Source of the DNA: a virus
Reading direction: 5' to 3' (one strand)
DNA length: 64,000 nt
IMG/VR virus record: IMGVR_UViG_3300030099_006944
Coordinates: 1 to 64,000 of that record
The notes under the pieces are model-generated. The model did not search any database. It saw only the letters and a program-made list of their open reading frames with translations, and was not told where the DNA came from. Made by a program: the position numbers and the translations under genes. Position 1 is the stretch's first letter. Every line of letters starts with the position of its first letter. This document shows positions 8,407 through 31,846 of this stretch, piece by piece.

Positions 8407-8868
8407 ATGTCAAAAGATATGAAGCTGATAATGGAAACGTTTCGAAAAAACGTCGTACAAGAAAAAGAAGAATTGCAGACGGTTGGTGCCGTTTTAAGCA
8501 TCATACAGAAATTCCGACAAGCGAAAGCAGGTGGTGAGGCAGGCAAAAAAGCACTCGAAATGACCATTGAGCAAATTCCGATCGTTAGTAATATATGGAG
8601 CATCGTGAAGGGCGCCAAAGAAGCCAAAGATATGATCTCTACTCTATATGGGATGGATGATAAATTCCAGAGCAATACCGGACTAGACAAGCTTAACATC
8701 GATGATAATATTTCAAAGATAGTCGACGACAAAGTGGAGGCAGCGTTTTTAAATTTTTTAATTGACAAATTAGGAAAAATGAATCCAGACGCACCAATGC
8801 CAGACGCGTCGATTGAAATTCAAGATTTTTTAGCTAGCAAATTTGATCAACATACGATAAAAAAATAA
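8407..8868 (+). CDS. Putative internal (packaged) protein, 153 aa
   Basis: The N-terminus MSKDMKLIMETFRK matches that of the 454-aa protein at 25464 (MSKDMKKIMEAYRK). It fits a T4-like capsid-targeting peptide with a possible prohead-protease site after LIME or IME (residue 10). Residues about 55-75 are hydrophobic (MTIEQIPIVSNIWSIV), like a membrane-active helix. The rest is helical. The function after the peptide is unknown. TTTGGAG precedes ATG. Confidence 0.55.
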   Translation: MSKDMKLIMETFRKNVVQEKEELQTVGAVLSIIQKFRQAKAGGEAGKKALEMTIEQIPIVSNIWSIVKGAKEAKDMISTLYGMDDKFQSNTGLDKLNIDDNISKIVDDKVEAAFLNFLIDKLGKMNPDAPMPDASIEIQDFLASKFDQHTIKK

Positions 8869-8880
8869 GGACAATTCCCA

Positions 8881-9153
8881 ATGAAGATAACAAAAAAACA
8901 ATTAATGGAAATCATCGAAGAAGCAATGACAGTGATGGAAGACGATGAGGCTCCGGAGCCCGGTGGCGAGACGATGTCGGATGTTGGGAGGGTCCTAACT
9001 TATATCGACAAGATAGACAACTATAAAGAATACGGACAACTATTACAAAAAATATTAGAACACGAAGTTAGAGGAAAAGATGTCGTTATGAGGAAAGTTT
9101 TAGGCAACCAAATAGCCAACGCAATCCTTAAAAAATTGGGTGGATCAAAATGA
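8881..9153 (+). CDS. Putative internal protein with capsid-targeting-like peptide, 90 aa
   Basis: Starts MKITKKQLMEIIEE with glutamate at position 14, in the same register as the leaders at 9853, 12014, 18244 and 31481. An acidic linker follows (MEDDEAPEPGGE), then a helical domain. If cleaved after residue 14, a 76-aa mature protein results. The mature function is unknown. Confidence 0.6.
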   Translation: MKITKKQLMEIIEEAMTVMEDDEAPEPGGETMSDVGRVLTYIDKIDNYKEYGQLLQKILEHEVRGKDVVMRKVLGNQIANAILKKLGGSK

Positions 9154-9323
9154 AGTTGGAGTTATCACACATCATAGCACTATTGACCATTGGAGCAACG
9201 CTAGTGGGCTTTTATTACACTACAAATCACCGCCTAGACCATCTAGAAGATATCGTTGTAGAATTGAAAGAAAGGGATATGTTGCTTGAACAAAAGATAA
9301 ACAAAAAAGGAAAAAAGAAATGA
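9150..9323 (+). CDS. Membrane-anchored coiled-coil mini-protein, 57 aa
   Basis: One transmembrane helix (residues about 7-23, HIIALLTIGATLVGFYY) is followed by a heptad-like helix (LDHLEDIVVELKERDMLLEQ) and a Lys-rich tail. Size and layout resemble small spanin-like or other phage inner-membrane proteins, but there is no lysis cluster here, so no function is assigned. It overlaps both neighbours (ATGA). Confidence 0.55.
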   Translation: MKLELSHIIALLTIGATLVGFYYTTNHRLDHLEDIVVELKERDMLLEQKINKKGKKK

Positions 9324-9856
9324 GCAAAAGAAAAAGTCAATGGCCGTCACAATTTTCGCCGGTAAAACCATGGGAGTCGTTTTTGGTATATTTCGACAAA
9401 GGAGCAAAGGCTCCGCCCATTCCACCTAGGATGGTTCGAATAAAAGGAAGCATTGACGTACGTCACACTCTTAACCTTAAAAAAAATTATCAACAAAACA
9501 ACGTAATCATTGATATTCAGGTCGATAACATCACCCCTGATGGTAGACACACTCCCGTTGATATGTGGCTTAACGTTAGTGGTTACAACATAGAACCCGA
9601 CCCCGATGGGAAGTATATCGATATCGATGCATGGGTTCTCAAAAACAAAGGGATTTCCGATGACTTTGGTAATATCCTTGACCGTCAAGGAAAACTTGTT
9701 GCAACAAAGAAACAACAAAACAAATGGTCGGGCGTTCCAACGCACACTCCTAAGCCTCCGCAAAAACAAACTGATTCTAGCGGTAATATCATGGAAGGAC
9801 TTACCAAAGAGAAGTTGCACAAACTAATTGAACAGGTAATGAGAGATTTGAAATGA
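9320..9856 (+). CDS. Hypothetical protein with the packaging-like motif at its C-terminus, 178 aa
   Basis: Residues about 30-130 are beta-rich, with VRIKGSIDVRHTL, NVIIDIQVDNI and MWLNVSGYN. A Pro/Lys/Gln-rich linker follows. The last 20 residues (LTKEKLHKLIEQVMRDLK) are the same amphipathic motif that other genes here carry at the N-terminus. So the tag may work from either end, or this protein may have been fused with a former neighbour. The mature role is unknown. Confidence 0.55.
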   Translation: MSKRKSQWPSQFSPVKPWESFLVYFDKGAKAPPIPPRMVRIKGSIDVRHTLNLKKNYQQNNVIIDIQVDNITPDGRHTPVDMWLNVSGYNIEPDPDGKYIDIDAWVLKNKGISDDFGNILDRQGKLVATKKQQNKWSGVPTHTPKPPQKQTDSSGNIMEGLTKEKLHKLIEQVMRDLK

Positions 9857-12027
9857 AGCTTAACAAAAAATATTTGTTCGGGCTGATAATGGAAGCCTTG
9901 GAAGACGATGGTTTATCAAACGAAGAGCGTCAAGATTTTTTCGCGAAAGCAATGGATCTTGCCTCTGTTGATTGGCCAAGTGTACAACAAGCATTAGAAT
10001 TAATTCAATACGTTAATTTTGACGAAAAACAAATGCAAGCTCTTAAGAGCACCATGGAAGATACAATTTTAGGCGCGAATGGGCCCGACGAACCCGGACC
10101 GGCTTTAAAAGAATTAGGCTTTGATTTTCACCAAATTTTTCAAAACGAAATGGGGTTTCGTCCTCCGGAAGGAGAGTTCGAACTAAAAAACAAAATCTTT
10201 TCTCTTCGGGCTAACCCCGGCGGTAATCGAATGGAGTTTGAATTTTATTTTGATCAACAAGGGCCGCTAGCGATAGAGCCTTTCTTTCATTTCAAAAGCC
10301 CTCTTCAACCATATGATGGCTATGTCGGAATGGACATGGACAGAGAGATCACTTTTTCTGCTGGCTCTGCTCGAACCTTTGGTGCTGATGAGATTACAAT
10401 ATCCAAGAGAGAGTTGCCCGGAAGACTTAGAAAAGCTATGGGTTTTGGTCCGGATGAGGACATCCCGGGATGGCCCGGATTACCGAAGGGATCGGCGCCA
10501 ACCATAAACGAAAACCAAGGGAATCTAGGATTCTCTACTGCTGAGGAGTTCGAAGAGTGGTTGTACTCCGAGTATATGAAGGGTGCAAAATATTTTAAAC
10601 AAGGTGCTGGGAACTTTAATCATGGTGAGTTTAAAAAGGTCATCAAAACTTTTTTAAATATCGAATGGAGACCTGCTAACAAAAGACCTTGGAAGGAACA
10701 CTCTATTCATGAACCTTTTGCGGCATATAGATTTATTGAAGAGGCTGATCACATGTTTCCTTTTATATGGCGTCTTTTAGGTCATGATAGGAGCCACAAG
10801 AGACCCGACGGGAAATCGTACGGATGGCAAGGAAGTAACTGGGAGGATAGGTATTATAGATTAAGGCATTCTTCTGAGCATCCAATAATTAAACGATTAC
10901 AAGACCTTGCAAAAAAGATGATGAATGCTCTTTCTTTTTCTAGTAGACAATTACCTACATTTAAAAAAGCGCTTGGCTTGAAAGAGTCCGGTAAACAAAA
11001 ATTAAATAAAGATTATTTGTTTCATATGATCAACGAGGTTCTTCGCGAAGACGAAGAAGAGCAAGAACCGATCGATATCTTAAAAGATAAAATTGAAAAC
11101 GTCATCAAACTAAAAGATTGGAGCTACTATGTCCAATTTTTTGAATTGATCGATACTTTCGAAGATAGCGCTTTAATAGAAAAGGAAGAGGCTAACGCAC
11201 TTCGCGAAAGGTTGTGGGGAGCCGTCTGGTTTTTAAAAGTTTATGATCGCGATAACTTGGATGAAGTTGCTGAATTATTTTTAACTCACAAAAACCTTCC
11301 GGAAGACACCAAAGAAGATATTCACTCTTCCATTTATTATTATGGTGGATATTTTAGGGATACCGAATGGACTCTCAAGTATGTGGCTAAATCGCTTGGA
11401 TTAAATTTGAAGATTGAAGCCATTGATCCTGATAATTTGTATGAACTTAGTGGCGCTGATGGAGATGATTTAGATAAGCTTAAGGATCACTTGCTTGAAT
11501 TGGGTGAAGAAGAGAAATACTTTGAGGTGTATCCTGAGACCGGAGGTCTGTTGTTTGGTGTGTTAGCAAAACCTTATGTCAACTTTGAGAAGAAAATAGA
11601 GGAAATTTTTGGCGCAACGCCGAGCGGCGATCCTATGATGTCTGGTGGTTCTATGATGACCGTCTCGATAAGGAAATCGATCGATGAACCTTTTGAGGCT
11701 CCGATGGTGAAGGGCAGTAAAGTAACAGCAGATATAATGTTTGAGTGGAGTCCGGAGACCGAGTATGGAATGGAGATCACTCTTCTTCCTGCTAAATTGG
11801 GAACTACACCACAAACATTGCTTGATGAGTATTATGGAATCTGGGTGAGTGTTGCACAAGAGGGTCCTAATATCGGAAAACTTGAAATTGGAATTCAAAA
11901 TTATGAGGATGAATTTGCGGACCACAAACAGGTTCAGAACAAAAACGGAACTTACGGATTTACTGTTGAAGAAATGAAAGACAAAATCAAAGAAATAACT
12001 GGAATTGACTTAAATGAAATTAACTAA
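9853..12027 (+). CDS. Large protein with two packaging-like motifs (apparent fusion), 724 aa
   Basis: It starts MKLNKKYLFGLIMEALEDD, and a second copy of the motif (KLNKDYLFHMINEVLRED) occurs at about residue 383. This suggests two tagged proteins fused into one frame. If both sites are cut, two mature fragments of about 370 and 330 residues are expected. The first half has beta-rich parts (FELKNKIFSLRANPGG, MEFEFYFDQQ). The second half has a helical part followed by a beta-rich domain (about 590-700). No known enzyme motif was recognised. Confidence 0.6.
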   Translation: MKLNKKYLFGLIMEALEDDGLSNEERQDFFAKAMDLASVDWPSVQQALELIQYVNFDEKQMQALKSTMEDTILGANGPDEPGPALKELGFDFHQIFQNEMGFRPPEGEFELKNKIFSLRANPGGNRMEFEFYFDQQGPLAIEPFFHFKSPLQPYDGYVGMDMDREITFSAGSARTFGADEITISKRELPGRLRKAMGFGPDEDIPGWPGLPKGSAPTINENQGNLGFSTAEEFEEWLYSEYMKGAKYFKQGAGNFNHGEFKKVIKTFLNIEWRPANKRPWKEHSIHEPFAAYRFIEEADHMFPFIWRLLGHDRSHKRPDGKSYGWQGSNWEDRYYRLRHSSEHPIIKRLQDLAKKMMNALSFSSRQLPTFKKALGLKESGKQKLNKDYLFHMINEVLREDEEEQEPIDILKDKIENVIKLKDWSYYVQFFELIDTFEDSALIEKEEANALRERLWGAVWFLKVYDRDNLDEVAELFLTHKNLPEDTKEDIHSSIYYYGGYFRDTEWTLKYVAKSLGLNLKIEAIDPDNLYELSGADGDDLDKLKDHLLELGEEEKYFEVYPETGGLLFGVLAKPYVNFEKKIEEIFGATPSGDPMMSGGSMMTVSIRKSIDEPFEAPMVKGSKVTADIMFEWSPETEYGMEITLLPAKLGTTPQTLLDEYYGIWVSVAQEGPNIGKLEIGIQNYEDEFADHKQVQNKNGTYGFTVEEMKDKIKEITGIDLNEIN

Positions 12028-12739
12028 AGAAAAATTAAAAAAACTTATTCTCGAAACAATGAGCGAATCACAATATTATTATGATGCGAGTGACTTAGAT
12101 ACTGACTTTGCTCAACAAGCTATCGAGATTGGACAATCCTTGGGGGATGAAGGAGAAAGAGATCGATCGGCGCAAGTCGACAAGTATGTTTCTCTCAAAG
12201 TAAACAAAGAACTCAAAAAAGCCATCGAAGAGCACACAAAAGAATTACTTAAAGACTTAACAAACGAAGCCGCACAAACCATGGGACTATTCGATAACGA
12301 TGACGAGGAATATTTTGAAAAAACTTGGAACGAACTCGAAGGGTTGTACACCAGAGCATTACGAAGACCTCTACAGGCTATGAAAGAATTTGACGGATCT
12401 CAGGAATCTATTGATAAATGGGTGGACACATTGAAAAGCGTTGAACGTGTTTTATATAAAGCAAAAGATCCCGGAATGTATTACCTAGGAAGACTTACAC
12501 CAGAACATCTTATTATTGGCGATACATACAACACTGGTAACACGTGGGATCTAGAAGGCTGGGATTATGAATACGATAAGATGTCAATAAAACCAGAAAC
12601 GGCAGTAAAAGAAGCAGAAGAGTTTTTCCGACCTGCTATTATGAAGACTATCATGGGCATTCAAAAACGTAAAACCGGTGTTGATGTTGGAGAAATGTTT
12701 GGCATCGATGAAGACAAAAAAAGATTAAATAAATTCTAA
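12014..12739 (+). CDS. Putative internal protein with capsid-targeting-like peptide, 241 aa
   Basis: Starts MKLTKEKLKKLILE with glutamate at residue 14, then TMSESQYYYDASD. The start overlaps the end of the preceding gene by 14 bases. The body is highly charged and helical. No enzyme motif was recognised. Confidence 0.6.
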   Translation: MKLTKEKLKKLILETMSESQYYYDASDLDTDFAQQAIEIGQSLGDEGERDRSAQVDKYVSLKVNKELKKAIEEHTKELLKDLTNEAAQTMGLFDNDDEEYFEKTWNELEGLYTRALRRPLQAMKEFDGSQESIDKWVDTLKSVERVLYKAKDPGMYYLGRLTPEHLIIGDTYNTGNTWDLEGWDYEYDKMSIKPETAVKEAEEFFRPAIMKTIMGIQKRKTGVDVGEMFGIDEDKKRLNKF

Positions 12740-12751
12740 ATCCTTCTATAA

Positions 12752-12777
12752 CCCCCTATTTACTTATATAAGGGGGG
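12752..12777 (+). promoter_or_regulatory. Hairpin pairing the ribosome site of the VWA lipoprotein gene
   Basis: CCCCCT (12752-12757) can pair with AGGGGG (12771-12776). That G-run is also the best Shine-Dalgarno sequence for ATG 12785. The stem could end upstream transcription or hide the ribosome site. A CTATTTA motif (12756-12762) overlaps its left arm. Confidence 0.45.
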
Positions 12778-12784
12778 CTTATGA

Positions 12785-14368: not shown

Positions 14369-14874
14369 CCCGTCATTATAGGTGGTGGCTAATTCTTTCT
14401 GGAATTGTTGGGTTTATTTTGGGGGTGACCTTGAAAATTGCTTGGGAAGAGAGTCAGTTTATCTTAGCCGAATGGGAAGAAGACCCTATCTTAGTTATAT
14501 GTCCTGATAGTCATTTGACCAATTATCGCGTTAGTAAAGCGGTTGAATGGTGGGGAATCCGCGGATATAATATTTCATATGTGCACTGGGACAGGAGCAA
14601 CGAAATATGTTCCAACACTTGGTCACAAGGAATGATTTTGGTTCGAGGCCAAGGCGAGTTACTGCCTGATACCTATGCTATCACTTCTAGATTAACAATT
14701 ATCAACAAAATGATTTCTGCTCAAATCATACTTCCAAACGATCGTAAATTTATGCCCAGATTGTTAGAACACGAACTAGGTCACGCTTTTGGTATGAAGC
14801 ATGTAGAGAAGATTGGACACATAATGCACCCAATACATGAGCAAGGCGGAGAAAAATTTTGGATTCCAGATTAA
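14362..14874 (+). CDS. Membrane-anchored metzincin-type zinc protease, 170 aa
   Basis: One N-terminal transmembrane helix (residues about 8-26, WWLILSGIVGFILGV). The zinc motif HELGHAFGMKH (HExxHxxGxxH, residues about 137-147) is complete. It is followed by a Met-turn-like GHIMHP, as in matrixins and astacins. The protein is small, consistent with a minimal catalytic domain facing the periplasm. The overlap with the VWA lipoprotein gene suggests that the two act together. Protease activity is inferred from the complete motif; the substrate is unknown. Confidence 0.75.
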   Translation: MLTRHYRWWLILSGIVGFILGVTLKIAWEESQFILAEWEEDPILVICPDSHLTNYRVSKAVEWWGIRGYNISYVHWDRSNEICSNTWSQGMILVRGQGELLPDTYAITSRLTIINKMISAQIILPNDRKFMPRLLEHELGHAFGMKHVEKIGHIMHPIHEQGGEKFWIPD

Positions 14875-14888
14875 CATTTACCTCCAAA

Positions 14889-14905
14889 CTATTTATTGTG
14901 AGGTG
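14889..14905 (+). promoter_or_regulatory. CTATTTATTGTGAGGT leader motif (copy 1)
   Basis: Identical over 16 bases to the leader at 25210. The GAGG part is probably the Shine-Dalgarno sequence for ATG 14912. The upstream CTATTTATT part is unexplained. Confidence 0.5.
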
Positions 14906-14911
14906 GAAGTA

Positions 14912-16513
14912 ATGAAGATTCGGATAATAAAAGAAGTTATAAGTAAGAGCGGTGACAAGTGGGTTGTGAAATCAAAAAAGGGAAAGACCCTAGGCACACA
15001 TGATTCTGAAACAAAAGCAAAAGCACAATTGGCAGCCATCGAGGCTAGCAAGAATGAAGAACAATTGGAAGAAATTTCTTCTGTTGGCAGTGGTGCTGTT
15101 CAAGGTTATGGAGCTCCGCTAGGTAGTAAAAAAGACAACGAAGAATTCAATGAAAGTGAAAAACAAGCCTCTAAACTCAAAGGAAAAAAATTAGCAGAAA
15201 TGTTTTCTTCCTCGACACAAACAGGTGGTTTGCGAATTAGTATCGTACGGGGAGAAAAAGAACATGCTGGTCATGTAGAAAGAGCCAGACACCAAGGTCT
15301 CAGAAACGTAATGAAAGAAGATGATGATGCTACTTTACCTATGGATGACAGCACTAGGCCTTTACCTGATGCTAAACCAATCCCTGTACCTCGTGATCCA
15401 GTGGAAGTCATGTTGGAGAAAAACGGATATAAGCTCAAAAAGAAACTAGGAGAAGGACAGTATGGAGTTGTTGTTCTTGCTACTGAGATTGACGAATATG
15501 GTGGTCACAATTTCGCTATTAAGATCTTAAAGAAGACTGGTGGAGAAGCTATAGCACGTGAAGTTAGAAACTATCGAGAGATATCTAGTGCTCGCGATAA
15601 AAACCCGGTAATTGCAAAGCATTTTCCAGAAGTCTTTAAGATATTTGAAGAAGAGGGGAACACTTTTATTGTAATGGAAGTATTGGAGCCTCTGCATGCT
15701 GAATTGAAGGGGATTTTTAGCGGAGTTGAACAGATTATGCATAAACAAAGACCTATGATGGCGCCGAATTGGCCAATCTCACAATTTGACAGCGACAAAG
15801 ATGTATCAAAAAGAGTTGAAATGATGTTGGATGACTCTAAGCAGATTGCTAATCTGATTGATGTTGTTAAAAGGAGACTACTAACGTATTCTACTGAGTA
15901 TAATAAAAAAATAGAACCACAAGTTTTAAAAGATATAGAGACCGCTATAAACCCAAGTGTATTCGCGAACTTCCGGAGTGTGTCTAGAAAAGAAGCTAGT
16001 CAAAAAGTCAATCGGTTTAACGACCAAATTTTAGATTATCTTGGCGGGGCGGCAGGAATTTACTCATCTATCATGACTGATATGAAGAATTCTCCTGCTA
16101 GTCAAGTTTTTGTCACATTGATGTGCAAAAAGATTATAGAAATAATGAAACGTTATACCCCACAAGGTGACAACGTCAAAGATTTTACTGAATTTATCGT
16201 CAAGCCCTTCTTGGAGCGGTTCCAAAAACAATATAGGATGTCAACTTCTCTCAAAGGTGGCTATTCCCAATCAGATATTGGCAAAGAAGGAGGCAGAAGA
16301 GATGATGCTGAGAGTATCTTTCAAGCAATTATGGGCCTTCAAAAAGAAACAGGGTTGTTTGCTCGCGATTTACACGACGGAAACGCAATGAGAAGGCCGG
16401 ATGGTGACATTGTAATAGTAGATGTTGGAATGTTTAAAACAGACACTGAACTAAATCAAATGAAAAAAGGAAAACTCCGGGAAAACCGGATCAGAATCAA
16501 AATAAAACGTTGA
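14912..16513 (+). CDS. Atypical protein-kinase-like protein, 533 aa
   Basis: N-terminal module MKIRIIKEVI...DKWVVKSKKGKTLGTH is followed by a GSGAVQGYGAPLG segment seen in other phage structural proteins. A kinase N-lobe starts near residue 172: LGEGQYGVVVLA (Gly-rich loop, about 180), FAIKILKK (Lys about 204), a helix with AREVRNYREI, and the hinge FIVMEVLEP. A helical stretch of about 220 residues intervenes before the catalytic loop RDLHDGN (about 485-491) and a DVG in place of DFG (about 504). Only about 30 residues follow, so the usual C-lobe after DFG is missing or is supplied by the insertion. All key catalytic residues are present. ATG 14912 (GAGGTGGAAGTA upstream) is chosen over the upstream TTG at 14837. 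Confidence 0.7.
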   Translation: MKIRIIKEVISKSGDKWVVKSKKGKTLGTHDSETKAKAQLAAIEASKNEEQLEEISSVGSGAVQGYGAPLGSKKDNEEFNESEKQASKLKGKKLAEMFSSSTQTGGLRISIVRGEKEHAGHVERARHQGLRNVMKEDDDATLPMDDSTRPLPDAKPIPVPRDPVEVMLEKNGYKLKKKLGEGQYGVVVLATEIDEYGGHNFAIKILKKTGGEAIAREVRNYREISSARDKNPVIAKHFPEVFKIFEEEGNTFIVMEVLEPLHAELKGIFSGVEQIMHKQRPMMAPNWPISQFDSDKDVSKRVEMMLDDSKQIANLIDVVKRRLLTYSTEYNKKIEPQVLKDIETAINPSVFANFRSVSRKEASQKVNRFNDQILDYLGGAAGIYSSIMTDMKNSPASQVFVTLMCKKIIEIMKRYTPQGDNVKDFTEFIVKPFLERFQKQYRMSTSLKGGYSQSDIGKEGGRRDDAESIFQAIMGLQKETGLFARDLHDGNAMRRPDGDIVIVDVGMFKTDTELNQMKKGKLRENRIRIKIKR

Positions 16514-16556: not shown

Positions 16557-17780
16557 ATGAAAGAATTATTGGATAAAATGAAAAAATTAAATGAAAATAA
16601 AAATGGAAAAGTTGTTACTTTTGATTTTGATAATACAATCATAAAGTCATATGAAGATTCTAACGATGGCGAAGAGACAATTTACCAATATGGTGGTAAA
16701 AATCCACAAATTATTGCAAGAATCAAGAAATTTAAACAGGCTGGTTCGACAGTGCTGATAGTAACAGCAAGAACACATGCCCTTGAAGTACCAGAAAGCT
16801 CTGTTCAAAACATGTTGGCTAAATACGGTATCGAAGTGGACGGCATATTCTATACAAATGGAGATAAAAAGGCCAAAAAGCTTTATGAACTAGGATCTAC
16901 TCTTCATTATGACGACGACCCTGCTGAAAGAGAAGCCATTGAGGCTTATAGAAAACTGCATCCTAATGATATTGTGGTAAAAGATCCCGACAAACTAGTC
17001 AAAGATATCGATGAAATCTCCAAAGGTTTGATCATGACCACTGATGGTAAGTATATCATAGCCCAAAGGTCAGATTCATATGAATGGGATGCTCCCGGTG
17101 GACATCTTATGGAAGGAGAGGAAGCAAATTACGCTTTTTATCGTGAAGTTTTAGAAGAATTGTCTTTAAAAGTAAAGAAAGTTCAGTATATGTCATCCCT
17201 TAACACCACTTGGAAAAAGAAAAACAAGTTGGTTCATTATTTTATAGCACAAGTTCCTCACTCTTCTGATGAATTAGAGGGGATTGTACAGTTACAATGG
17301 GAAATTGCTGATTATTTTTGCGGAGATCTAGAAGAAGTGATGGAAAAGATGGGAGAAGGGGCAACACAAAACCTAAAAAACACCATAGGTTTCCTAAATG
17401 AGTCTGATTTGATGCTTGAAAGAGCATGGCCGCACTCTAATAATCATTCTACAAAGAAAAGAAGACTAGTCGGAACAGGAATCAACAAACACACAGGTGG
17501 CGGTGATGCTAAAAACGTTGAAGACCACAGTAGATCAGACAATGCACCGGTTGGATATGGTGTTTTCGAAGAATCTAACGAAAAAAAAACTAAAAAAATA
17601 AAAATTTCTATCGTTTCTGATCTCGAAGAAAGAAGAAAGAAGCGAAAAAAACGTAAAAAACGTAGAAAAAAGAGAAAATACACTAAATCCAAAGGTATCG
17701 GATGGCCATATGGTGATTGGAACATTGGAAGTTTAGGTGATAGTAGCGATGGAGGCGGCGATGGTGGCGGCGGAGAATAG
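16557..17780 (+). CDS. HAD-like phosphatase fused to Nudix hydrolase, with basic tail, 407 aa
   Basis: The N-terminal HAD-type domain has VVTFDFDNT (nucleophile Asp about 23), TART near 71 and HYDDDPAE near 118, resembling the polynucleotide-kinase phosphatase type. The Nudix domain has the full box GHLMEGEEANYAFYREVLEEL (shown to 20 residues of pattern Gx5Ex7REUxEE, about 181-201). An acidic to neutral linker follows, then a run of Arg/Lys (RKKRKKRKKRRKKRK, about 360-376) and a Gly/Asp tail. The fusion could remove and hydrolyse nucleotide-type phosphates, and the basic tail could bind RNA or DNA. It has its own sigma70-type promoter, unlike its neighbours, so it is probably expressed early. 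Confidence 0.75.
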   Translation: MKELLDKMKKLNENKNGKVVTFDFDNTIIKSYEDSNDGEETIYQYGGKNPQIIARIKKFKQAGSTVLIVTARTHALEVPESSVQNMLAKYGIEVDGIFYTNGDKKAKKLYELGSTLHYDDDPAEREAIEAYRKLHPNDIVVKDPDKLVKDIDEISKGLIMTTDGKYIIAQRSDSYEWDAPGGHLMEGEEANYAFYREVLEELSLKVKKVQYMSSLNTTWKKKNKLVHYFIAQVPHSSDELEGIVQLQWEIADYFCGDLEEVMEKMGEGATQNLKNTIGFLNESDLMLERAWPHSNNHSTKKRRLVGTGINKHTGGGDAKNVEDHSRSDNAPVGYGVFEESNEKKTKKIKISIVSDLEERRKKRKKRKKRRKKRKYTKSKGIGWPYGDWNIGSLGDSSDGGGDGGGGE

Positions 17781-18243: not shown

Positions 18244-18621
18244 ATGAAAATTAGTAAAAAAAGACTCATAGAAATCATCACAGAAGAGTGTGAGATGATG
18301 AATGAGCCCGAAATGTCTCATGAGATCGACAAAGAAGGTGCCATGGCGAAGAGACAACTACATGATATGGAAAAATATTCACGTGAATTAAGCCAAATGC
18401 TCACAGACACAACACAATTGGAGTCTTGGGTACAAGCAAAGCTAACAAAAGCAGCAGATTACCTCAAAACTGTTAAACATTATGTTGAATATGGCATGGA
18501 AGAGGGTGCTTATGATCAAGTTATGCCTGAAATGGAGCCAATCGAGCCAGATTATGAGCAAATGTACGACATGGGTGGAGAAGAAATTAAAAAAATGCTT
18601 GAAAAGTTAGGTGAATCGTGA
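18244..18621 (+). CDS. Putative internal protein with capsid-targeting-like peptide, 125 aa
   Basis: Starts MKISKKRLIEIITE with glutamate at residue 14, then ECEMMNEPEMS. The rest is helical and acidic (DYEQMYDMGGEEIKKMLEKL). It overlaps the next start (GTGA). Confidence 0.6.
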   Translation: MKISKKRLIEIITEECEMMNEPEMSHEIDKEGAMAKRQLHDMEKYSRELSQMLTDTTQLESWVQAKLTKAADYLKTVKHYVEYGMEEGAYDQVMPEMEPIEPDYEQMYDMGGEEIKKMLEKLGES

Positions 18622-21415: not shown

Positions 21416-21444
21416 TTGACAACCAAGTGGTAACAGGATATAAT
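21416..21444 (+). promoter_or_regulatory. Perfect sigma70-type promoter overlapping a start codon
   Basis: TTGACA (21416-21421), 17-bp spacer, TATAAT (21439-21444). The last two bases of the -10 box are the AT of the apparent ATG 21443, so a transcript from this promoter would not contain that start codon. Confidence 0.7.
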
Positions 21445-21640
21445 GGATGTAGGTGATCTTGTCAGAATCAAATATAGTCACTACTCTCCTTTTTACATCA
21501 GACCAGATGTAGGAGAAATAGGTATTATAGTAGAAGTCAGCAAGAGTTCTTCCCTAGGAGTCATATATTTTGTACAAACATCAGATGGAATTTGGAAATT
21601 CTCAGATTATGAAGTGGAGCCTTTTGATGGAGGTAGGTGA
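21443..21640 (+). CDS. GDLV-family mini-protein, 65 aa (start uncertain)
   Basis: MDVGDLVRIKYS, IGIIVEVSK, IYFVQTSDGIW and DYEVEPFDGG. ATG 21443 overlaps a -10 box and has only a weak ribosome site, and no later in-frame start preserves the GDLV motif. It may be translated from longer upstream transcripts. Confidence 0.55.
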   Translation: MDVGDLVRIKYSHYSPFYIRPDVGEIGIIVEVSKSSSLGVIYFVQTSDGIWKFSDYEVEPFDGGR

Positions 21641-21824
21641 TCTGGTTAGAGTGACTTGTACCAACGAACCTTTTCGGTTCAGGCCGGACAAAGGTAGTGT
21701 TGGTATAATAGTAGAAATTAAATATTATAACTGGGCAGGGACTTGTTATTTCGTATTGATAGATGACATTGGTTGGAGATATTTAGAAACGGAATTGGAG
21801 TTAATTAGCAGTGGAAGTAGGTGA
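21627..21824 (+). CDS. GDLV-family mini-protein, 65 aa
   Basis: MEVGDLVRVTCTNEPFRFRPDKGSVGII resembles the preceding copy (RPDxGxxGIIVEI), pointing to tandem duplication. Its ATGGAGGTAGGTGAT also contains the upstream gene's TGA stop. GGAG lies seven bases upstream. Confidence 0.6.
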   Translation: MEVGDLVRVTCTNEPFRFRPDKGSVGIIVEIKYYNWAGTCYFVLIDDIGWRYLETELELISSGSR

Positions 21825-22047
21825 TTTAGTAAGACAAAGGTCGGTTGGAGTTGCGATCATATCAGAATATATAAGAAGCAGTTTGCATCTAGGTTTAATT
21901 GGTGTCATAAAAGAAGTGCACGATAAAACTAATTTTTCATATGATGGAAGGAACCGAGGAGATATTACAGTTGTGTGGTCCAATGGAAAAGAGGAAACAC
22001 TACCAGAGATTTATTTAGAAAAGGTGGAAGATGAGCAAAGAACTTGA
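21811..22047 (+). CDS. GDLV-family mini-protein, 78 aa, GTG start
   Basis: GTG 21811 reads MEVGDLVRQRSVG, then LGLIGVIKEV, ITVVWSNGKEETL and IYLEKV. As for its neighbour, the AGGTGA of the GDLV codons supplies the upstream stop codon. Confidence 0.6.
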   Translation: MEVGDLVRQRSVGVAIISEYIRSSLHLGLIGVIKEVHDKTNFSYDGRNRGDITVVWSNGKEETLPEIYLEKVEDEQRT

Positions 22048-23706: not shown

Positions 23707-24030
23707 ATGAAAATATTTTATTTAAACAGAACAGAAGATGAAAGCGGAATAAGCGGAACAGGCAGAGTGGCGCAAGGCTTTGTGTTTGATAATGGCAAAG
23801 TTGCTGTTACTTGGCTTTCAGAACATCCAAGCGTTACCGTGTATGATTCAATCGGAGAAGTTCATGCAATTCATGGTCACGGCGGCAAGACAGAAGTTGT
23901 AATGGAGCCGGATTACAAGAAGGCATTTGGAGAATTGAAATCCTTTGTTGATAATTTTAATATGTCAGAAGTGGTTAATTCTAAATTAACTCCCGATGGT
24001 CCGGCGTCAAAACTGATGGCAAAGGCCTAA
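23707..24030 (+). CDS. Hypothetical protein, 107 aa
   Basis: Starts MKIFYLNRTEDESGISGTGRVAQG, followed by FDNGKVAVTWLSEHPSVTVYDS, a compact beta domain. TAGGAGAACC precedes ATG 23707. The function is unknown, but a WLS...SV.VYDS pattern recurs in small phage and bacterial proteins of unknown role. Confidence 0.55.
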   Translation: MKIFYLNRTEDESGISGTGRVAQGFVFDNGKVAVTWLSEHPSVTVYDSIGEVHAIHGHGGKTEVVMEPDYKKAFGELKSFVDNFNMSEVVNSKLTPDGPASKLMAKA

Positions 24031-24049
24031 TTACTATGTGGAGAATTTA

Positions 24050-24538: not shown

Positions 24539-24972
24539 TGAAAATAAAAAGAATAATGGTTAGCGGAGGTTTCGACCCCGTGCATATAGGTCATATTCAA
24601 ATGATCGAAAAAGCATCAGAATGGGGCGAAGTGATTGTCGTAATAAATTCTGATGATTGGCTAATGAGAAAAAAAGGTTATGTCTTTATGCCATGGAAAG
24701 AAAGAGCCTATATAATGGGTAACATCAAAGGAGTATCTTTGGTATCAGGAGTAAACGATGAAGACGGAACAGTTTGTCAAGCCATCGGAATTCACAGACC
24801 AGATGCGTTTGCAAACGGTGGAGATAGAAAAAAAGATAATACTCCGGAAATGGAGTTGTGCGATGAACTTGGCATTCAAATGATGTGGGGCGTCGGAGGA
24901 AAAGATAAACCACAATCATCATCGTGGTTAGTAAATAAAGCAATGGAGCAATTAAATGGAACTAGGAAATAA
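24538..24972 (+). CDS. Cytidylyltransferase-like nucleotidyltransferase, 144 aa
   Basis: VSGGFDPVHIGHIQMI carries the HxGH motif of the nucleotidyltransferase superfamily (glycerol-3-phosphate cytidylyltransferase and RfaE/HldE C-domain types). It continues with INSDDWL, WKERAYI and SSSWLVNKA (ISSTxx-like). The enzyme probably activates a sugar- or alcohol-phosphate with CTP or ATP. It lies two genes from phosphomannomutase. ATG 24538 has GAGGAAATA upstream and overlaps the HNH stop. Confidence 0.75.
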   Translation: MKIKRIMVSGGFDPVHIGHIQMIEKASEWGEVIVVINSDDWLMRKKGYVFMPWKERAYIMGNIKGVSLVSGVNDEDGTVCQAIGIHRPDAFANGGDRKKDNTPEMELCDELGIQMMWGVGGKDKPQSSSWLVNKAMEQLNGTRK

Positions 24973-25198
24973 AAATTTAGAGAATTTTCTCAAAAAAGCG
25001 GAAGAAGATCCGGAGTTGATGGAGATACTGAAAGGTATAGTTTATTACTGTCAAGCCGCTTCGGAAAAGGGTATACCCCTCGAAGAGGTAGCATCTGCCG
25101 GTACCGTTGGGTGGACAATTGGACAAGACCCTAGGTTGAAAGAAATGTTGAAACACCTAATTAAGATTAGTGAAATGGGTTTAGGAACAGAACATTAA
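24956..25198 (+). CDS. Hypothetical helical protein, 80 aa
   Basis: Not recognised. Entirely helical with charged ends (ENFLKKAEEDPELMEILKG). It overlaps the nucleotidyltransferase gene by 17 bases. Confidence 0.5.
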   Translation: MELGNKNLENFLKKAEEDPELMEILKGIVYYCQAASEKGIPLEEVASAGTVGWTIGQDPRLKEMLKHLIKISEMGLGTEH

Positions 25199-25209
25199 TC
25201 CTTTACAAT

Positions 25210-25226
25210 CTATTTATTGTGAGGTA
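25210..25226 (+). promoter_or_regulatory. CTATTTATTGTGAGGT leader motif (copy 2)
   Basis: Same 16-base sequence as at 14889, here 17-18 bases before ATG 25234. A partial copy (TTTATTGTGAGG) precedes ATG 24538. Confidence 0.5.
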
Positions 25227-25233
25227 ATCTATT

Positions 25234-25464
25234 ATGTTTTTGATGTTAATTATGAATTTGGCCTTCGCCCAAGACGAAGGACGTACTGTCACGTACAAGA
25301 AAAAGACAGAAATCGACTTCGAAGGAGTTGATGTTTCTGGTGAACTCGTAAAGCCCCAAGGTGCACTTTTGCTTGATCGTAAAAGAGCCTCTTTCAATCC
25401 GTTGATTAAATTACGTTCAGACTTTAATCCGGAAATGTCCTCATCGGTGTCGGAGATTAAATAA
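25234..25464 (+). CDS. Small secreted protein, 76 aa, resembling deltaproteobacterial periplasmic proteins
   Basis: A signal peptide (MFLMLIMNLAFAQD, cleavage probably after FAQ or AFA) is followed by YKKKTEIDFEGVDVSGELVKP, LLLDRKRASFNPLIKLRSDF and NPEM. From memory this sequence resembles short secreted proteins encoded near gliding/TonB-type systems of Myxococcota and Bdellovibrionota; that recall was not checked. It overlaps the next gene (ATG at the stop). It probably acts in the periplasm and may have been acquired from the host. Confidence 0.5.
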   Translation: MFLMLIMNLAFAQDEGRTVTYKKKTEIDFEGVDVSGELVKPQGALLLDRKRASFNPLIKLRSDFNPEMSSSVSEIK

Positions 25465-26828
25465 TGTCGAAAGATATGAAAAAGATAATGGAAGCGTATC
25501 GTAAGGGTATTTTGTTGAACGAGAAACGTTATTCCATCGGTGATATTAGATACAGAAAAGACAAAAAACCTAGTGCCGACGTCAAAGGATCTGATTTTGA
25601 TAAAGACGGCGTAGAGAACCAATTTGATGATGTTCCTTTTGACGCAAATTTTCACGATATAGATGGAGTAGATCAGGAAAAATTTGCGGACGCAGTCGGA
25701 GTAGATCCGAATGTTATAGGGAGAGGAATAACCGATACCCTATCAGATAAATTTAAAGATTATTATAAGAGTCAAGGTGTTGAAAACCCGCGAGATATAA
25801 CAGAGCCAATACCCGCTGGTCCAGATCCAGATCAAGAAAAATCAGCAGACGGAGATCAAGAACCATCTACTGACCTAGACCAAGAAGAGATAGCTGCCGC
25901 GTTAACGACACTGGATCCGTCCAACTTCGGAAAAGGGGCCAAAGCAGTTTACAATGATGGAGAAGTTACTGTTTTTGAGTTTATGGAGTGGATGTCGGGC
26001 CGTGAGTTATTGAAGAGTAATTTTGAAAGGTTCAAAGAAAACCTTCAAACATTTGCCCAAAATTTTGCAGAAAAAAACCCTAAGATAGTAAAAATGCTCC
26101 CGGGCGATGCCACACTAAGAGGTTTGATTGGACAAACTATAACTTTTTTCGAGGAGCAAGGTTATGCATTATTAAAGGGCGGCGCCAAAGGAGGCCTCTT
26201 GGATGTGATAGCAGGGATTCTTGATCAAGCCGGTGTACCTAACACATTAGGATTCCGAAGAATGCTAGCCAGAGTGATAAGCGCAGCCATAATCCAAACA
26301 GCAACAGATAAGGCAGAAGATATTGTTGATGGTGTAATTAAAAAATTAACAGATTCATCTAATTCGTTAAAGAGAAAATCTATGAAGATCATGACCGTCG
26401 GTGACGACGGCAAACCAGTGTTAAAATACAACCAAGACATCCAAGAAATGTTTGACGTGCCGGAGGAGATTGTGAAAATGTTCCAAGGGAAATTACAAGA
26501 CAACGGACAAAGACTAATCAGTAAGTTTTTTAATGAATATAGAACAAATCTAGTTAAAATATTCGAAATGGCAAAAGAGGCAACTAGCGATCCGAAGAAG
26601 TATCAGAACATCATTAATCAAGATCTAACAGAATTTCTAAAAGATCAAGACACAAGCACCAATGCTGCCAAAGACGCGTTGGAATATATAAGAAATGCTT
26701 ACAATTTAAAAGGAATAAAGGTCACAACGAAAGCCAATGATGAGAAAGGAACGTCTTCTCGTACTGTCACTGCTGGTACTGTGAATGAATCCAAGCGTCG
26801 TCGCATAGTATACCGAGGAAAGAAATGA
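25464..26828 (+). CDS. Putative internal virion protein, 454 aa
   Basis: The N-terminus MSKDMKKIMEAYRKGILLNE matches the 153-aa protein at 8407, with a potential cleavage after IME (residue 10). A Ca-loop-like DKDGVENQFDDVPFD occurs at about 45-60. The central part (about 190-300) is helical with amphipathic and Gly/Ala-rich stretches (ALLKGGAKGGLLDVIAGIL), which may be membrane-active. It is translationally coupled to the 1113-aa protein. The function is unknown. Confidence 0.55.
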   Translation: MSKDMKKIMEAYRKGILLNEKRYSIGDIRYRKDKKPSADVKGSDFDKDGVENQFDDVPFDANFHDIDGVDQEKFADAVGVDPNVIGRGITDTLSDKFKDYYKSQGVENPRDITEPIPAGPDPDQEKSADGDQEPSTDLDQEEIAAALTTLDPSNFGKGAKAVYNDGEVTVFEFMEWMSGRELLKSNFERFKENLQTFAQNFAEKNPKIVKMLPGDATLRGLIGQTITFFEEQGYALLKGGAKGGLLDVIAGILDQAGVPNTLGFRRMLARVISAAIIQTATDKAEDIVDGVIKKLTDSSNSLKRKSMKIMTVGDDGKPVLKYNQDIQEMFDVPEEIVKMFQGKLQDNGQRLISKFFNEYRTNLVKIFEMAKEATSDPKKYQNIINQDLTEFLKDQDTSTNAAKDALEYIRNAYNLKGIKVTTKANDEKGTSSRTVTAGTVNESKRRRIVYRGKK

Positions 26829-29800
26829 ACAATAAAGAACTTTTAATCGAGTTATACAGCCACCCATTAGTCCAACGAATGCTTATCAAGGAACTTTTGA
26901 CCAAGCGTCAATTAGTAGAATTGGTTTTGTTGGAGAAGAAAAAATGGTATCACGGCCCATGGTACAAAGAAAAAGAAGAAACAACCTTAGACCGAAGAGA
27001 CAAAGCAGATAGAAACACATCTAAGATAGCTTCAACAGTAAAATCAAAAATAGATTCATGGACGAAGCCTCTCGGGGGCAAAGCCGATGAATTAATAGAC
27101 CCAGAAAAAAAAATAAGCAAAAAGACTTACGATGGCGCTTTTAAAAAGACAAAGAGAGAAATTGCCGCCAAGCTAGACGAAAAATCGAAATCCAAACAAA
27201 AGGTTTATTCCAAAACAGGGACAGATGCGACGGGGTCTAAATATACAAAAGAAGGTGGTATCTATTACACAAAACAAGATAAAAGTAAAGGGTCGGATCT
27301 CGCAAATATCTTTAAAGACCTTTCAAGTTCCCTAGGGAAACCGAAATTTCAGGGTAACACAATAAACAGACCAACAGTGACATTCTTGTTGTGGTTCAAA
27401 AAAGTTTCCGAGCTAGATTGGAACAATTTCAAGACAGAAACGGAAGCATCAGTCATACAAGAATCAAAAAATCCGAAAAAGTTTTTAGAGAGAACTCAGA
27501 AAAATCTTGAACAAATTGCCCTTGAAATTGGATTAAAAATAGTAAAGCAAGCTATGGATGATTTAATAAACGACAAAGACCTATCGGAAGAAGTGAGAGA
27601 ATACGCTGAAAAAAATATTCCGAAGTATATGAAAGCTCGAAAGGATGCTTCTAATAACTGGACAGACCCAAACCACCAGTTTAGATCTTTGCTTCTGGCG
27701 TTAGGAGAATCATCGCAAGATTTTTATGAAAAATACCTAAAATTAAACGACACTAGATGGCTTGATAAATTGGAGAAAGAAGAACGGGCAGCTATCAAGA
27801 GATTTATAAAGCTTTATAAAGCAGAGTTTTTAGCTAAAAAATGGCAAAACACACAAGAAATCAATGAACAGGACGAGGGAGAAAACGATGGGTTGCAAAC
27901 TTTTTTGGGCTTAGAGGTCTTCGCGAAAGAGTTATCAAAGTCACAAGCAACAGAGATCTGGAACAAACTTGATGATGCAGAGAAACAAATCATAGTTAAT
28001 TTGGTGAAAGAATATCCAGAGGGTTTTAACAAATACCTTTATGGAAGAGCAGATACTCATGGGGATATTTGGGGCCTCGAAGATGAAATGAGTAACAGAC
28101 TTATTAGAGCCTCAGAAGAAGAAATAGAAAAAGCCAAAGAGCGTCTCGAAATGGAAAAGAGACAAAAGAAAGAAAAAGAAGAAAAATATGAAAAAACCCG
28201 AGGATCCTTGAAGAAGATCCTTCCTTTTGCAATAAACAAATCTGCGCGATTAATCAAGGCTTTGGAAAAGATGGTGTCTTTCTTAGACAAAGATACGTTA
28301 AAAGATCCCGGAGGACCAGAGCTTGGAAAAAGAGAGTTCGTATCAGAAGATATGAATCCTCCAATGAAAAGTAGACAACAAATCAAAGATCAACTAGAAA
28401 AAGAATTAAAATATCAAAAAGAATTAATGAAGTTGTTGGAGTTTTATTTCAAAGTATTTGTACAAGAGAAAGACAAGCTCCAAGATGCTAATTTTCTAGA
28501 TCAAATGATATTGAAGGCAAAAAATATCGTAAGAATGATGAAAGAGATTCTAGCAGATGCATCTGATTCCATAAAGACAAAGTTCGTTGGTGGTGATGAA
28601 GAAGGTACCCAAGAACAAGCGGAAGAGGTCTTGGAGACAGAACCAGAGCAAGCAGTTAACGAGCAACAATCCGGCACTTCTGCAATCGATAATGCAAACG
28701 AGTGGATACAGGCAATAGAATCTTTAATAAGAGACAATTATACTCGCTTAGAGAGAGTTTATGGCGAAACCAAGAAGGTACTATCTGATCTCAAAAAGGG
28801 TCAATTTGAACTGTCCTCTGAGTTACAAGATATCTTGAATAGAACCCTAGGTAGCAAAGTCATTGATTTGTTTGACAAGGCCTTGTCGGACCTCAAAAAC
28901 AATTTACCGATGGAAGATTATAAAACTAAACTTAAAAACATATCCGATCTAGAAAACCGCGACTTAGTGGGCTTAAAACCTGACGTCGAACCGGTAACAG
29001 AAGCTCCCGAAGATCAAGAAACCCAGCCTGCTAACAAAGAACAAGCCCAAAGAGAATTCATCCGTACGTACGATACTTTTGAATCCCATAAAAATGTAAC
29101 ATTAAAAGCTTTGGAGGGCCTTCGAAGGAGTCTCGATTCTGTCGATCAAGAAAAATACTTTGCATTCTTTCAATTAGCCGGTAAGACAGCAGAGAAGATT
29201 ACAGAATATGATAATTCGCTAAACGAGATAAAGAAGTTTCTGGCAAACCCGACAAACGTACCGGACTATATTAAAATAGGAGAAAAAGTCAGAAAGAAAG
29301 AAGAATTGATCCCTAAGCAAGGAAAACAACTTATACCAGCAAAATATGCCGAACAAATTAAGAATTCCATTGGTCAACAAGATGAGTTGAAGAGACTCTA
29401 CGATGATCAACAAGGACAAGGTGGTTTGTCAATGGAAAAAGTAGAAGAATATATGTCTGACGTCTCGCTGGTTATCGATGTTTTATCCGCTGCTTCCGCC
29501 GCAACCGGTGTAGGCCTTCCAGCAGCCGCTGCTCTCCAAGCCTTAGGTAAAGCTTTGACGGTAGGAGAGATAGCAAAGAAACTAGCAGATGGTGACTTTG
29601 CAGGAGCCGGTACCAAAGCAGTACTGATGCTGATGCCCGGAGAAAAAATAGCTAAATATTTAGGCGGAGCCGCTGGGAAGGTTGCCGCAAACTCATTTGG
29701 AAAATTCCTCAAACCGCTATCGGATTTTATGATAAAAAATCCAGACAAAGCTGGCGGTGTTATTGATTTATTAATAACGGGAGTTGGGCAAAAATTAGAC

Positions 29801-30166
29801 AACGACGACACACCTGAGGAGACAACAGGAACACCTGCCGGAAAGATAGAGAAAGCCAAAACTGAACTAGAAGAATTAAAAGAAGCCATAGGCAAAACCA
29901 ACGCAGCTGATGATCAAAAGAAAAAATGGATTGCATTTATTAACGATGCAGTGAATAGAACGGTTGCTATGGGCGAAGAAGATCTAACCGATGAACAATA
30001 TTTGAAAATATTGCTCGATGCAAAGCAAACTATAACCAACCAGATCAAGCAATTTCAGAACAATCAGGGAAACGAACCCAAACAAGAACACATAGAGCGA
30101 GCATTAAAGCCGATAATAGAACAACTACTAAGAGGTAAACATGGCGAAAAAGAACTTTATTATTGA
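26825..30166 (+). CDS. Large helical, putative internal virion protein, 1113 aa
   Basis: It begins with tandem tag-like helices (MLIKELLTKRQLVELVLLE) and ends with IERALKPIIEQLLRGKHG, again similar to the tag family. Most of the body is charged helix with probable coiled coils (about 435-470, EEEIEKAKERLEMEKRQKK). Near residues 880-955 a Gly/Ala-rich hydrophobic region (VIDVLSAASAATGVGLPAAA, KAVLMLMPGE, YLGGAAGKVAA) could insert in membranes, as in phage ejection proteins. No peptidoglycan-cleaving motif was seen. It overlaps the PIN-PhoH start by 26 bases. Confidence 0.55.
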   Translation: MNNKELLIELYSHPLVQRMLIKELLTKRQLVELVLLEKKKWYHGPWYKEKEETTLDRRDKADRNTSKIASTVKSKIDSWTKPLGGKADELIDPEKKISKKTYDGAFKKTKREIAAKLDEKSKSKQKVYSKTGTDATGSKYTKEGGIYYTKQDKSKGSDLANIFKDLSSSLGKPKFQGNTINRPTVTFLLWFKKVSELDWNNFKTETEASVIQESKNPKKFLERTQKNLEQIALEIGLKIVKQAMDDLINDKDLSEEVREYAEKNIPKYMKARKDASNNWTDPNHQFRSLLLALGESSQDFYEKYLKLNDTRWLDKLEKEERAAIKRFIKLYKAEFLAKKWQNTQEINEQDEGENDGLQTFLGLEVFAKELSKSQATEIWNKLDDAEKQIIVNLVKEYPEGFNKYLYGRADTHGDIWGLEDEMSNRLIRASEEEIEKAKERLEMEKRQKKEKEEKYEKTRGSLKKILPFAINKSARLIKALEKMVSFLDKDTLKDPGGPELGKREFVSEDMNPPMKSRQQIKDQLEKELKYQKELMKLLEFYFKVFVQEKDKLQDANFLDQMILKAKNIVRMMKEILADASDSIKTKFVGGDEEGTQEQAEEVLETEPEQAVNEQQSGTSAIDNANEWIQAIESLIRDNYTRLERVYGETKKVLSDLKKGQFELSSELQDILNRTLGSKVIDLFDKALSDLKNNLPMEDYKTKLKNISDLENRDLVGLKPDVEPVTEAPEDQETQPANKEQAQREFIRTYDTFESHKNVTLKALEGLRRSLDSVDQEKYFAFFQLAGKTAEKITEYDNSLNEIKKFLANPTNVPDYIKIGEKVRKKEELIPKQGKQLIPAKYAEQIKNSIGQQDELKRLYDDQQGQGGLSMEKVEEYMSDVSLVIDVLSAASAATGVGLPAAAALQALGKALTVGEIAKKLADGDFAGAGTKAVLMLMPGEKIAKYLGGAAGKVAANSFGKFLKPLSDFMIKNPDKAGGVIDLLITGVGQKLDNDDTPEETTGTPAGKIEKAKTELEELKEAIGKTNAADDQKKKWIAFINDAVNRTVAMGEEDLTDEQYLKILLDAKQTITNQIKQFQNNQGNEPKQEHIERALKPIIEQLLRGKHGEKELYY

Positions 30167-31484
30167 TACGAGCGTATTCCTATCAGACTCAAACTGCTTT
30201 TACAAGTTTCAAAACAACGATATATTTGTACCCCTTAAAGTATTAGAAGAAATTGACAAACACAAAAAGCGCCAAGACACCGTTGGCCATCATGCAAGGC
30301 AGGCAATAAGAACATTTGACGTTCTAAGGGGCGCTGGTAGCCTTTCTAAGGGCGTACGCATCGCCAAAGGGTTAGGGGTGCTTCGTGTAATCAAAGCGTC
30401 TGAAATATGCCTCAATGAGCTTCCTAGGGACCTTACGCACCAAATGTCCGATCACCTCATTTTAGCAACAGCGTTGACCATCAAAAAAGATCAACCGAAA
30501 AGAAAGACAGTTGTTGTGTCACGTGATATTAACATGAGAGTGATAGCAGACGCGTTAAGTCTGTTAACAGAAGATTACAGTAACTCTCAGGTTGTTGAGA
30601 ACACTGATAAAATATATGAGGGGTTTACAAAACTTTTGGTAGATGAAGAATCAATCAATCAATTTTATCTCGGAGATGATGTATATTTAGATGAGGATGT
30701 TGTAACAGAACAAAAAATTAAGCTATATCCGAATGAGTTTGTTATGTTAGTGTCATCTAGTAACGAAAAAAAAACGGCACTTTCCAGATTTACTGATTAT
30801 TCCAAACCACTACGTCACATTCGAGATTTAAAAAATGAATTAATGTGGGGTATCCATCCTCGAAACAAAGAACAATCCTTTGCGTTTGATTTGCTATTTG
30901 ATGATGAAATACCATTGGTATCTCTCATAGGTAAAGCCGGCTCTGGGAAGACCTTGATGGCCATTGCAGCCGCTTTGGAACAAGGGCTAGGGGGAAAGGG
31001 TGACCAATACCGTAGGATCATTATATCGCGCCCTGTACAGCCTCTGGGGAAAGACATTGGTTTCCTTCCGGGAACGATGGAAGAGAAAATGCTACCTTGG
31101 CTCAAACCAATTCAGGATAACATTCGTCACCTCATGGGAGACGATCGTACTATGCTCGAAGCCTATGTTGAGAAAGGAAAAATCGAAGTTGAGGCATTAA
31201 CTTACATAAGAGGACGGTCAATTTCTAATGCGTTTGTAATTATAGATGAGGCACAAAATCTCACAGCACATGAAGTCAAGACGATTATCACTCGGATTGG
31301 CGAGAACACAAAAATTGTTTTAACTGGTGACATTGAGCAAATTGACAATGTATATACTAATGAAACAAGCAATGGTTTGACGTATGCTGTTGAGAAGTTT
31401 AAAGAAAGTGAACTTGCCGGCCATATTACATTTAGAAAAGGAGAGCGGAGTAAACTCGCAACAGCAGCCGCAAAATTGTTATGA
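30141..31484 (+). CDS. PIN-PhoH fusion protein (PhoH2-like), 447 aa
   Basis: N-terminal PIN ribonuclease-like domain: FIIDTSVFL (Asp9), LEEIDKHK, QMSDHLIL and VVSRDINMR supply the acidic residues. The C-terminal PhoH ATPase starts near 225 with Walker A LIGKAGSGKTLMA, then ISRPVQPLGKDIGFLPG, Walker B FVIIDEAQN and LTGDIEQID. In bacteria the fused form acts as an RNA helicase/ribonuclease (PhoH2). It lies among virion genes here. ATG 30141 has AGAGGTAAAC upstream and sits inside the preceding gene. Confidence 0.85.
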   Translation: MAKKNFIIDTSVFLSDSNCFYKFQNNDIFVPLKVLEEIDKHKKRQDTVGHHARQAIRTFDVLRGAGSLSKGVRIAKGLGVLRVIKASEICLNELPRDLTHQMSDHLILATALTIKKDQPKRKTVVVSRDINMRVIADALSLLTEDYSNSQVVENTDKIYEGFTKLLVDEESINQFYLGDDVYLDEDVVTEQKIKLYPNEFVMLVSSSNEKKTALSRFTDYSKPLRHIRDLKNELMWGIHPRNKEQSFAFDLLFDDEIPLVSLIGKAGSGKTLMAIAAALEQGLGGKGDQYRRIIISRPVQPLGKDIGFLPGTMEEKMLPWLKPIQDNIRHLMGDDRTMLEAYVEKGKIEVEALTYIRGRSISNAFVIIDEAQNLTAHEVKTIITRIGENTKIVLTGDIEQIDNVYTNETSNGLTYAVEKFKESELAGHITFRKGERSKLATAAAKLL

Positions 31485-31846
31485 AACTTACAAAAGAAAA
31501 ACTTAAACATATTATTTTAGAAGAACTCAACCAAATGATCACAGAGCAGGACGGCGTCGATTTTCAGGGCATGTTAGCCAGTGAAACAGACGATGAAGAT
31601 CTCTATCAGAGGATGGTACTAGCAGCAGACTCTGGGATTTTAAACTTCGAGGAAGAGGAAATCGAAAAATTTTTAGATGGATATAGAAAATCTATGGATG
31701 CAATGGATTCTATCGGAGGCCTCCAAAACAAAGATAATTGGTCTGATGAACAATCGACAATTGCATACAACCAATCAGATGATCTGAATTTTTACAGAAA
31801 TACTTCTAGAAGTATATTAAAACAAGCCGGCTTACTAAAACAATGA
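31481..31846 (+). CDS. Putative internal protein with capsid-targeting-like peptide, 121 aa
   Basis: Starts MKLTKEKLKHIILE, nearly identical to the peptide at 12014, with glutamate at residue 14. An acidic body follows. It starts inside the PhoH stop region (ATGA) and overlaps the next gene. Confidence 0.6.
   Translation: MKLTKEKLKHIILEELNQMITEQDGVDFQGMLASETDDEDLYQRMVLAADSGILNFEEEEIEKFLDGYRKSMDAMDSIGGLQNKDNWSDEQSTIAYNQSDDLNFYRNTSRSILKQAGLLKQ

Follow-up and report, generated by a model that had tools for sequence, protein, structure and literature searches.

Many otherwise unrelated proteins encoded by the 187,355-bp virus contig IMGVR_UViG_3300030099_006944, whose first 64 kb form the stretch analysed here (64,000 nt; the window), begin with a common peptide of 14 residues, referred to below as the tag. 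The evidence suggests, with a probability that we put at roughly 0.8, that the tag is a cleavable capsid-targeting sequence (CTS) which works like that of bacteriophage T4 but has no sequence relationship to it, and that the phages using it are a mostly uncultivated group with gp23-type heads. To our knowledge, phage proteins that are injected with the DNA are known for a few model phages only, and those of T4 have been a source of anti-restriction and host-takeover functions. In the proposed pathway, a lysine-rich, helix-like segment of ~14-22 residues would dock newly made small proteins on the acidic scaffold core while the prohead assembles, an S77/gp21-type protease would cut the tag at [LI]xE (residue 14 and/or 21-22), and the unrelated mature proteins would stay inside the head and then enter the host along with the DNA. 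Docking, cleavage and packaging are predicted from sequence, with good support for targeting and cleavage, and capsid targeting has its precedent in T4 (PMC9026906, PMC3012670, PMC5694885). Injection, and a role in host takeover or anti-defence, may follow by analogy, from the T4 precedent only.

A shared N-terminal peptide on unrelated phage proteins

An earlier note, made from the sequence of the window, had described a shared N-terminal peptide on unrelated proteins and read it as a packaging tag. All seven N-termini that it gave were exact and the set is larger genome-wide (12 genes), so that the observation is confirmed and is bigger than the note had it. The strict pattern was defined as 14 residues, MK[IL]xKxxLxx[IL]IxE or a near variant, with E at residue 14. 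Over the whole phage genome, in which open reading frames (ORFs) beyond the window were called crudely, it occurs at 12 credible gene starts, five of them in the window and seven beyond it (84889, 85306, 91285, 91894, 93439, 94696 and 102031); one further match, at 14431, is a spurious internal (false alternative) start. Composition-preserving shuffling of residues 2-20 gave a mean of 0.34 matches and a maximum of 4 in 1000 shuffles, and the strict pattern was found in 0/785 non-gene ORFs and at 0/921 internal Met positions.

Other phages were also searched for the motif, as the earlier note had suggested, and the tag proved widespread in IMG/VR, where it sits on small proteins that are unrelated to one another. 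Scanned with a degenerate DNA pattern for MK[IL]xKxxLxx[IL][IL]xE, IMG/VR gave at least 178 matches in at least 120 stretches, at least 36 of which contain two or more; among the matches listed, 148 lead into an ORF of 60 aa or more and the free positions of the pattern converge on the consensus MK[IL]TKxQLKQIIKEE[LI]. When residue 14 was left free in the scan, E was found there in 142/163 and Q in 12 rows. Most Q14 rows have one common N-terminus. PHROGs identified the tested one as a portal protein, so this family's own conserved N-terminus resembles the tag by chance; the T4 portal gp20 is unprocessed (PMC5694885). Zero matches to the reversed pattern were found in 51 whole records, among which exact pattern matches in tagged records reach 15-16 per record, and 17 control records (retrieved by a scrambled pattern) had zero tags. 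Profile scoring found 24 tagged genes in each of two records (242 and 289 kb), including runs of 17-18 within ~8 kb, all on one strand, and the tagged share of called genes reaches 6-8%.

Occurrence of the same peptide on cellular proteins, which the note had named as evidence against it, was looked for in 257 Gb from 85,000 prokaryote genomes. A stricter pattern matched six contigs only (0.006 expected by chance, assuming uniform bases), all from metagenome-assembled genomes (MAGs). On the longest, NHDW01000006.1 (305,838 bp), 16 tags occur together with an S77 protease and a gp23 major capsid protein (MCP), and it is therefore a phage contig within a bacterial bin. The outcome thus does not go against the packaging reading: within the DNA tested, only phages have the tag. 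No paper describing the peptide was found among open-access papers. The tag-bearing, apparently phage contigs binned in bacterial MAGs are NHDW01000006.1 (L160, L164, L165), PBIO01000025.1 (L161, L163) and DJKT01000044.1 (L162); the bins holding tagged contigs are Methylococcaceae, Halobacteriovorax and Ca. Peribacter.

The proteins behind the tag have a median length of 106 aa and range from ~70 to 720 aa. After removal of the first 22 residues, 117 tagged proteins formed 107 clusters without detectable mutual similarity, and they share no common domains, which makes it very improbable that ordinary paralogy, with one family retaining its N-terminus only, accounts for the tag; the related cargo that speaks for such descent comes in some small clusters, the largest of 5 members. 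Searches with Pfam, PHROGs and NCBIfam gave isolated hits only, e.g. FliG_C-like (1.8e-8) and RMF-like (1e-4), and a regex search for the FliG_C-like and RMF-like cargo members identified neither. The tagged proteins of this genome are mutually unrelated in their mature parts and have no assigned names.

A common 5′ end could also work as nucleic acid, in translation initiation or mRNA regulation, or reflect recent copying of gene starts. Agreement among the tag codons of one locus exceeds the level predicted from codon usage (0.69 vs 0.47), and tags of the same genome resemble each other more than tags of different genomes do (0.46 vs 0.31); however, the protein sequence is conserved across distant phages despite synonymous change, with a between-loci codon identity of 0.54, and tags also occur internally and at C-termini, so we give this explanation very little credence.

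Further tag copies, internal or near the C-terminus, are found in 17/344 N-tagged proteins compared to 16/3540 other proteins (odds ratio 11, p 3e-10), and 7/32 distinct extra copies lie 12 residues or less from the C-terminus, where 2.5 are expected. The 9853 protein (internal copy) and the 9320 protein (C-terminal copy) fit this pattern. Both copies had been noticed earlier: that inside 9853 is borne out by self-alignment of the two halves of the protein (37% over 51 aa, E 7e-4), that of 9320 is present with moderate support only (~0.1 expected per proteome), and a third, claimed inside 20240, is not outstanding, falling outside the top profile hits. T4 Alt is cut at both ends (PMC9026906). 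A release site of their own upstream of internal and C-terminal tags was considered and rejected, since [LIM]xE was seen there 5 times against 5.9 expected. A 525-aa protein at genome positions 153875-155452 (L006:14875-16449) starts in a tag-like manner, contains a further tag-like helix internally and has segments rich in Cys and Lys; it matches phrog_727 and, weakly, DUF5754, and is the genome's most [LI]xE-enriched protein (14 vs 4.4 expected).

Prohead protease, capsid protein and candidate cleavage sites

The window contains no prohead protease gene, as had been noted, and a search of the remaining genome located one of gp21 type (S77) at 101418-102026, identified by Pfam PF03420 at 101514-101945 (E 2e-35) and also a head-maturation protease by PHROG. 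The tagged 79-aa ORF at 102031 begins 5 bp past the protease stop. Around the protease lies a T4-like head cluster with portal (96979), a scaffold-like ORF of acidic composition (111049; net charge -74 when the frame is read at its longest) and a gp23-type MCP (112359); a terminase-size ORF at 95392 was judged from its position beside the portal, with no profile behind it. [LI]xE is moderately enriched in the scaffold-like and MCP proteins (z 3.4 and 2.9). Two proteins outside the window, at 100286-100996 and 145999-146520, start MKKLLENFKSFLSE and MKKILNEWKKYLKE, a form nearer to the T4 CTS, and the former sits between portal and protease, the position of core proteins in T4.

MCPs were compared from 20 tagged records: their N-terminal segment has the end LLENQAxxLL[RK]E, after which nearly all have A, S, T or Q. 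L[RK]E is present in most of the 20, and the divergent MCP of record L308 has LIHE. This is a conserved, cleavage-like candidate propeptide site with the same [LI][KR]E as the end of the tag, and it lies at what we take to be the position where the propeptide of T4 gp23 ends. Among large IMG/VR records, S77 was found in 19/30 with tags and 4/17 controls (p 0.009), and gp23 in 18/30 and 3/17 (p 0.005). Every tagged record with a gp23-type capsid gene found also carries S77, and all 11 tagged records without S77 are also without gp23, as expected of fragments that lack the head module, although two of the 11 exceed 130 kb.

The tag is lysine-rich, with a net charge of +3. A second [LIM]xE is present in 89/134 non-redundant tags, compared to 50 ± 5 in shuffled sequences, mostly at residues 21-22, and is directly followed by G or A in 24/68. 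The fixed cut after residue 14 proposed at the outset is only one of two candidates, the other being this strongly enriched site at 21-22 with its T4-like G/A. Redundant sites are known in the propeptides of phiKZ-like phages (PMC9026906, PMC5694885).

The tag may also be imagined as a non-cleaved helix that docks on the scaffold, the tail or another phage complex, its [LI]xE ends being incidental to a charged helix. E15 is conserved nearly as well as E14, copies of the tag are found inside proteins and at their C-termini, and the absence of [LIM]xE enrichment upstream of internal copies points the same way; such a helix, however, needs neither a second [LIM]xE with G/A at a fixed distance nor a matching site in the MCP, and S77 accompanies the tag in every tagged record where gp23 was found. 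This explanation is considered unlikely.

Several points weigh against a cleavable CTS. A 135-kb record (G010) has three tags and neither S77 nor gp23. The co-occurrence of S77 and tag cannot be told apart from common descent of a T4-like clade, and is no proof of function. In most tags residue 15 is E, not the A that follows known T4 cleavage sites, which leaves the cut at 14 uncertain. The helical hydrophobic moment is barely over that of shuffled sequences (0.30 vs 0.25); a strong amphipathic helix was accordingly rejected and the tag is called helix-like only. The cargo is on average acidic, whereas T4 internal proteins are basic, and a virion proteome was found for none of the tagged phages. 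The main points of the CTS reading that sequence can test nevertheless support it: an S77 protease is present, the tag is phage-confined in the data tested, the MCP site matches and the mature domains are unrelated.

We lean, by a little over even odds, towards a broader statement: a large group of gp23-headed phages, most of them uncultivated, would share a sequence-recognisable address for entry into the head on up to 6-8% of called genes, sometimes at both ends or internally, and their packaged and injected arsenals, mostly of no known family, could be listed from sequence. If true, this sequence-readable tag would name hundreds of candidate injected proteins in environmental phages, and would be a second, independent targeting peptide for the loading of cargo into phage heads.

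Features of the window

Tag and tag-like segments in the window. Positions are those of the window; residue numbers count from the start of the ORF.
Feature	ORF	Position	Strand	Basis
14-residue tag MKITKKQLMEIIEE	8881-9153	8881..8922	+	pattern + profile score 28.2, null 0
Tag MKLNKKYLFGLIME, then A	9853-12027	9853..9894	+	pattern match
Tag MKLTKEKLKKLILE, then T	12014-12739	12014..12055	+	pattern + profile
Tag MKISKKRLIEIITE, then E; second site MNE/P (cut shown as /), residue 21	18244-18621	18244..18285	+	pattern + profile
Tag MKLTKEKLKHIILE, then E; second site ITE/Q, residue 22	31481-31846	31481..31522	+	pattern + profile
Short N-terminal peptide MSKDMKLIME (10 residues, IME then T)	8407-8868	8407..8436	+	common to 25464
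Short N-terminal peptide MSKDMKKIME, then A	25464-26828	25464..25493	+	common to 8407
C-terminal tag-like helix MEGLTKEKLHKLIEQVMRDLK	9320-9856	9791..9853	+	profile score 14.9, ~0.1 expected per proteome
Internal second copy KLNKDYLFHMINEVL	9853-12027	10996..11046	+	self-alignment of halves
Weak tag-like segment LTKRQLVELVLLEK, residues 25-38	26825-30166	26897..26938	+	profile, ~0.2 expected per proteome

The MSKDMK starts at 8407 and 25464 had been grouped with the tag; their sequences are as described, but the peptide is shorter than the 14-residue tag and separate from it. The mature parts of the two proteins have no mutual similarity, and an exact-pattern search for the peptide elsewhere in IMG/VR gave zero matches.

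A protein-kinase-like ORF lies at 14837-16513 (Pfam Pkinase, 3e-7) and weakly matches the PHROG of a kinase that inhibits host transcription. Its start is probably later, at MKIRIIKEVIS, and the protein may be a further packaged enzyme whose N-terminus is short and of IIKE type. At 16557-17780 lies a fusion of a phosphatase-like domain and NUDIX (Pfam), which has the T4-CTS-like start MKELLDKMKKLNE. Scattered at both genome ends (window 4245-6000 and 21443-22047; genome 152015-186323) are numerous tiny ORFs, apparently paralogs, that begin with a GDLV motif (MxVGDLVxxxxxxxxGxIG). Judged by eye only, two adjacent ORFs at window 40008-41661 resemble the halves of a transketolase and adjoin sugar-nucleotide and glycosyltransferase-like genes (33815-45015).

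Cultured relatives and known systems

Among cultured phages, Flavobacterium phage immuto and Microcystis phage Mel-JY01 come closest in MCP and protease, and Rhodothermus phage RM378 is also near by MCP. The host of immuto is Flavobacterium sp. LMO8, and the immuto positions given here are those of MW353176. A shorter form of the tag is present on at least three immuto genes, as MKKSQLRQIIKEA (113144), MKKSQLREIIRKE (102836) and MKKSELVKLIKEE (102250), and a looser form is found at 123311, between portal and protease, so that immuto, with its short variants, offers a laboratory system for the tag. Mel-JY01 is without the pattern, which with two mismatches allowed was also absent from T4, KVP40, RM378 and HTVC008M and gave one out-of-context match in P-SSM2. 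Searches of cultured phages by tblastn gave no match with the consensus tag peptide (a 30-aa query, and thus weak) or with the 9853 protein.

The closest parallel is the T4 CTS of IPI-III and Alt, which is cut by gp21 and is likewise an N-terminal peptide with an [LI]xE end on otherwise unrelated small proteins (PMC9026906, PMC3012670). As in T4, the genome encodes an S77 protease and a gp23-type MCP with a putative [LI]xE propeptide site, and the cargo is diverse while the tag alone is conserved. Sequence kinship with the T4 CTS was looked for and not found, the two consensus sequences differing in length as well as sequence, and the tag was therefore filed outside that family. It is also longer, with two sites, and occurs on up to 24 genes compared to T4's handful, internally or at C-termini as well as N-termini, and on acidic cargo. 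The phiKZ-like giant phages (SPN3US, phiKZ) have cleaved propeptides, redundant xxE sites and ejected head proteins (PMC5694885), features that are predicted here; their protease is S80 and their propeptides mostly exceed 100 residues, in contrast to S77 and ~14-22 residues. Packaging and injection have also been proposed for the polyvalent proteins of phages (PMC5512222), but these are large and multidomain, with enzyme domains, whereas the tagged proteins are small and give few, weak domain hits.

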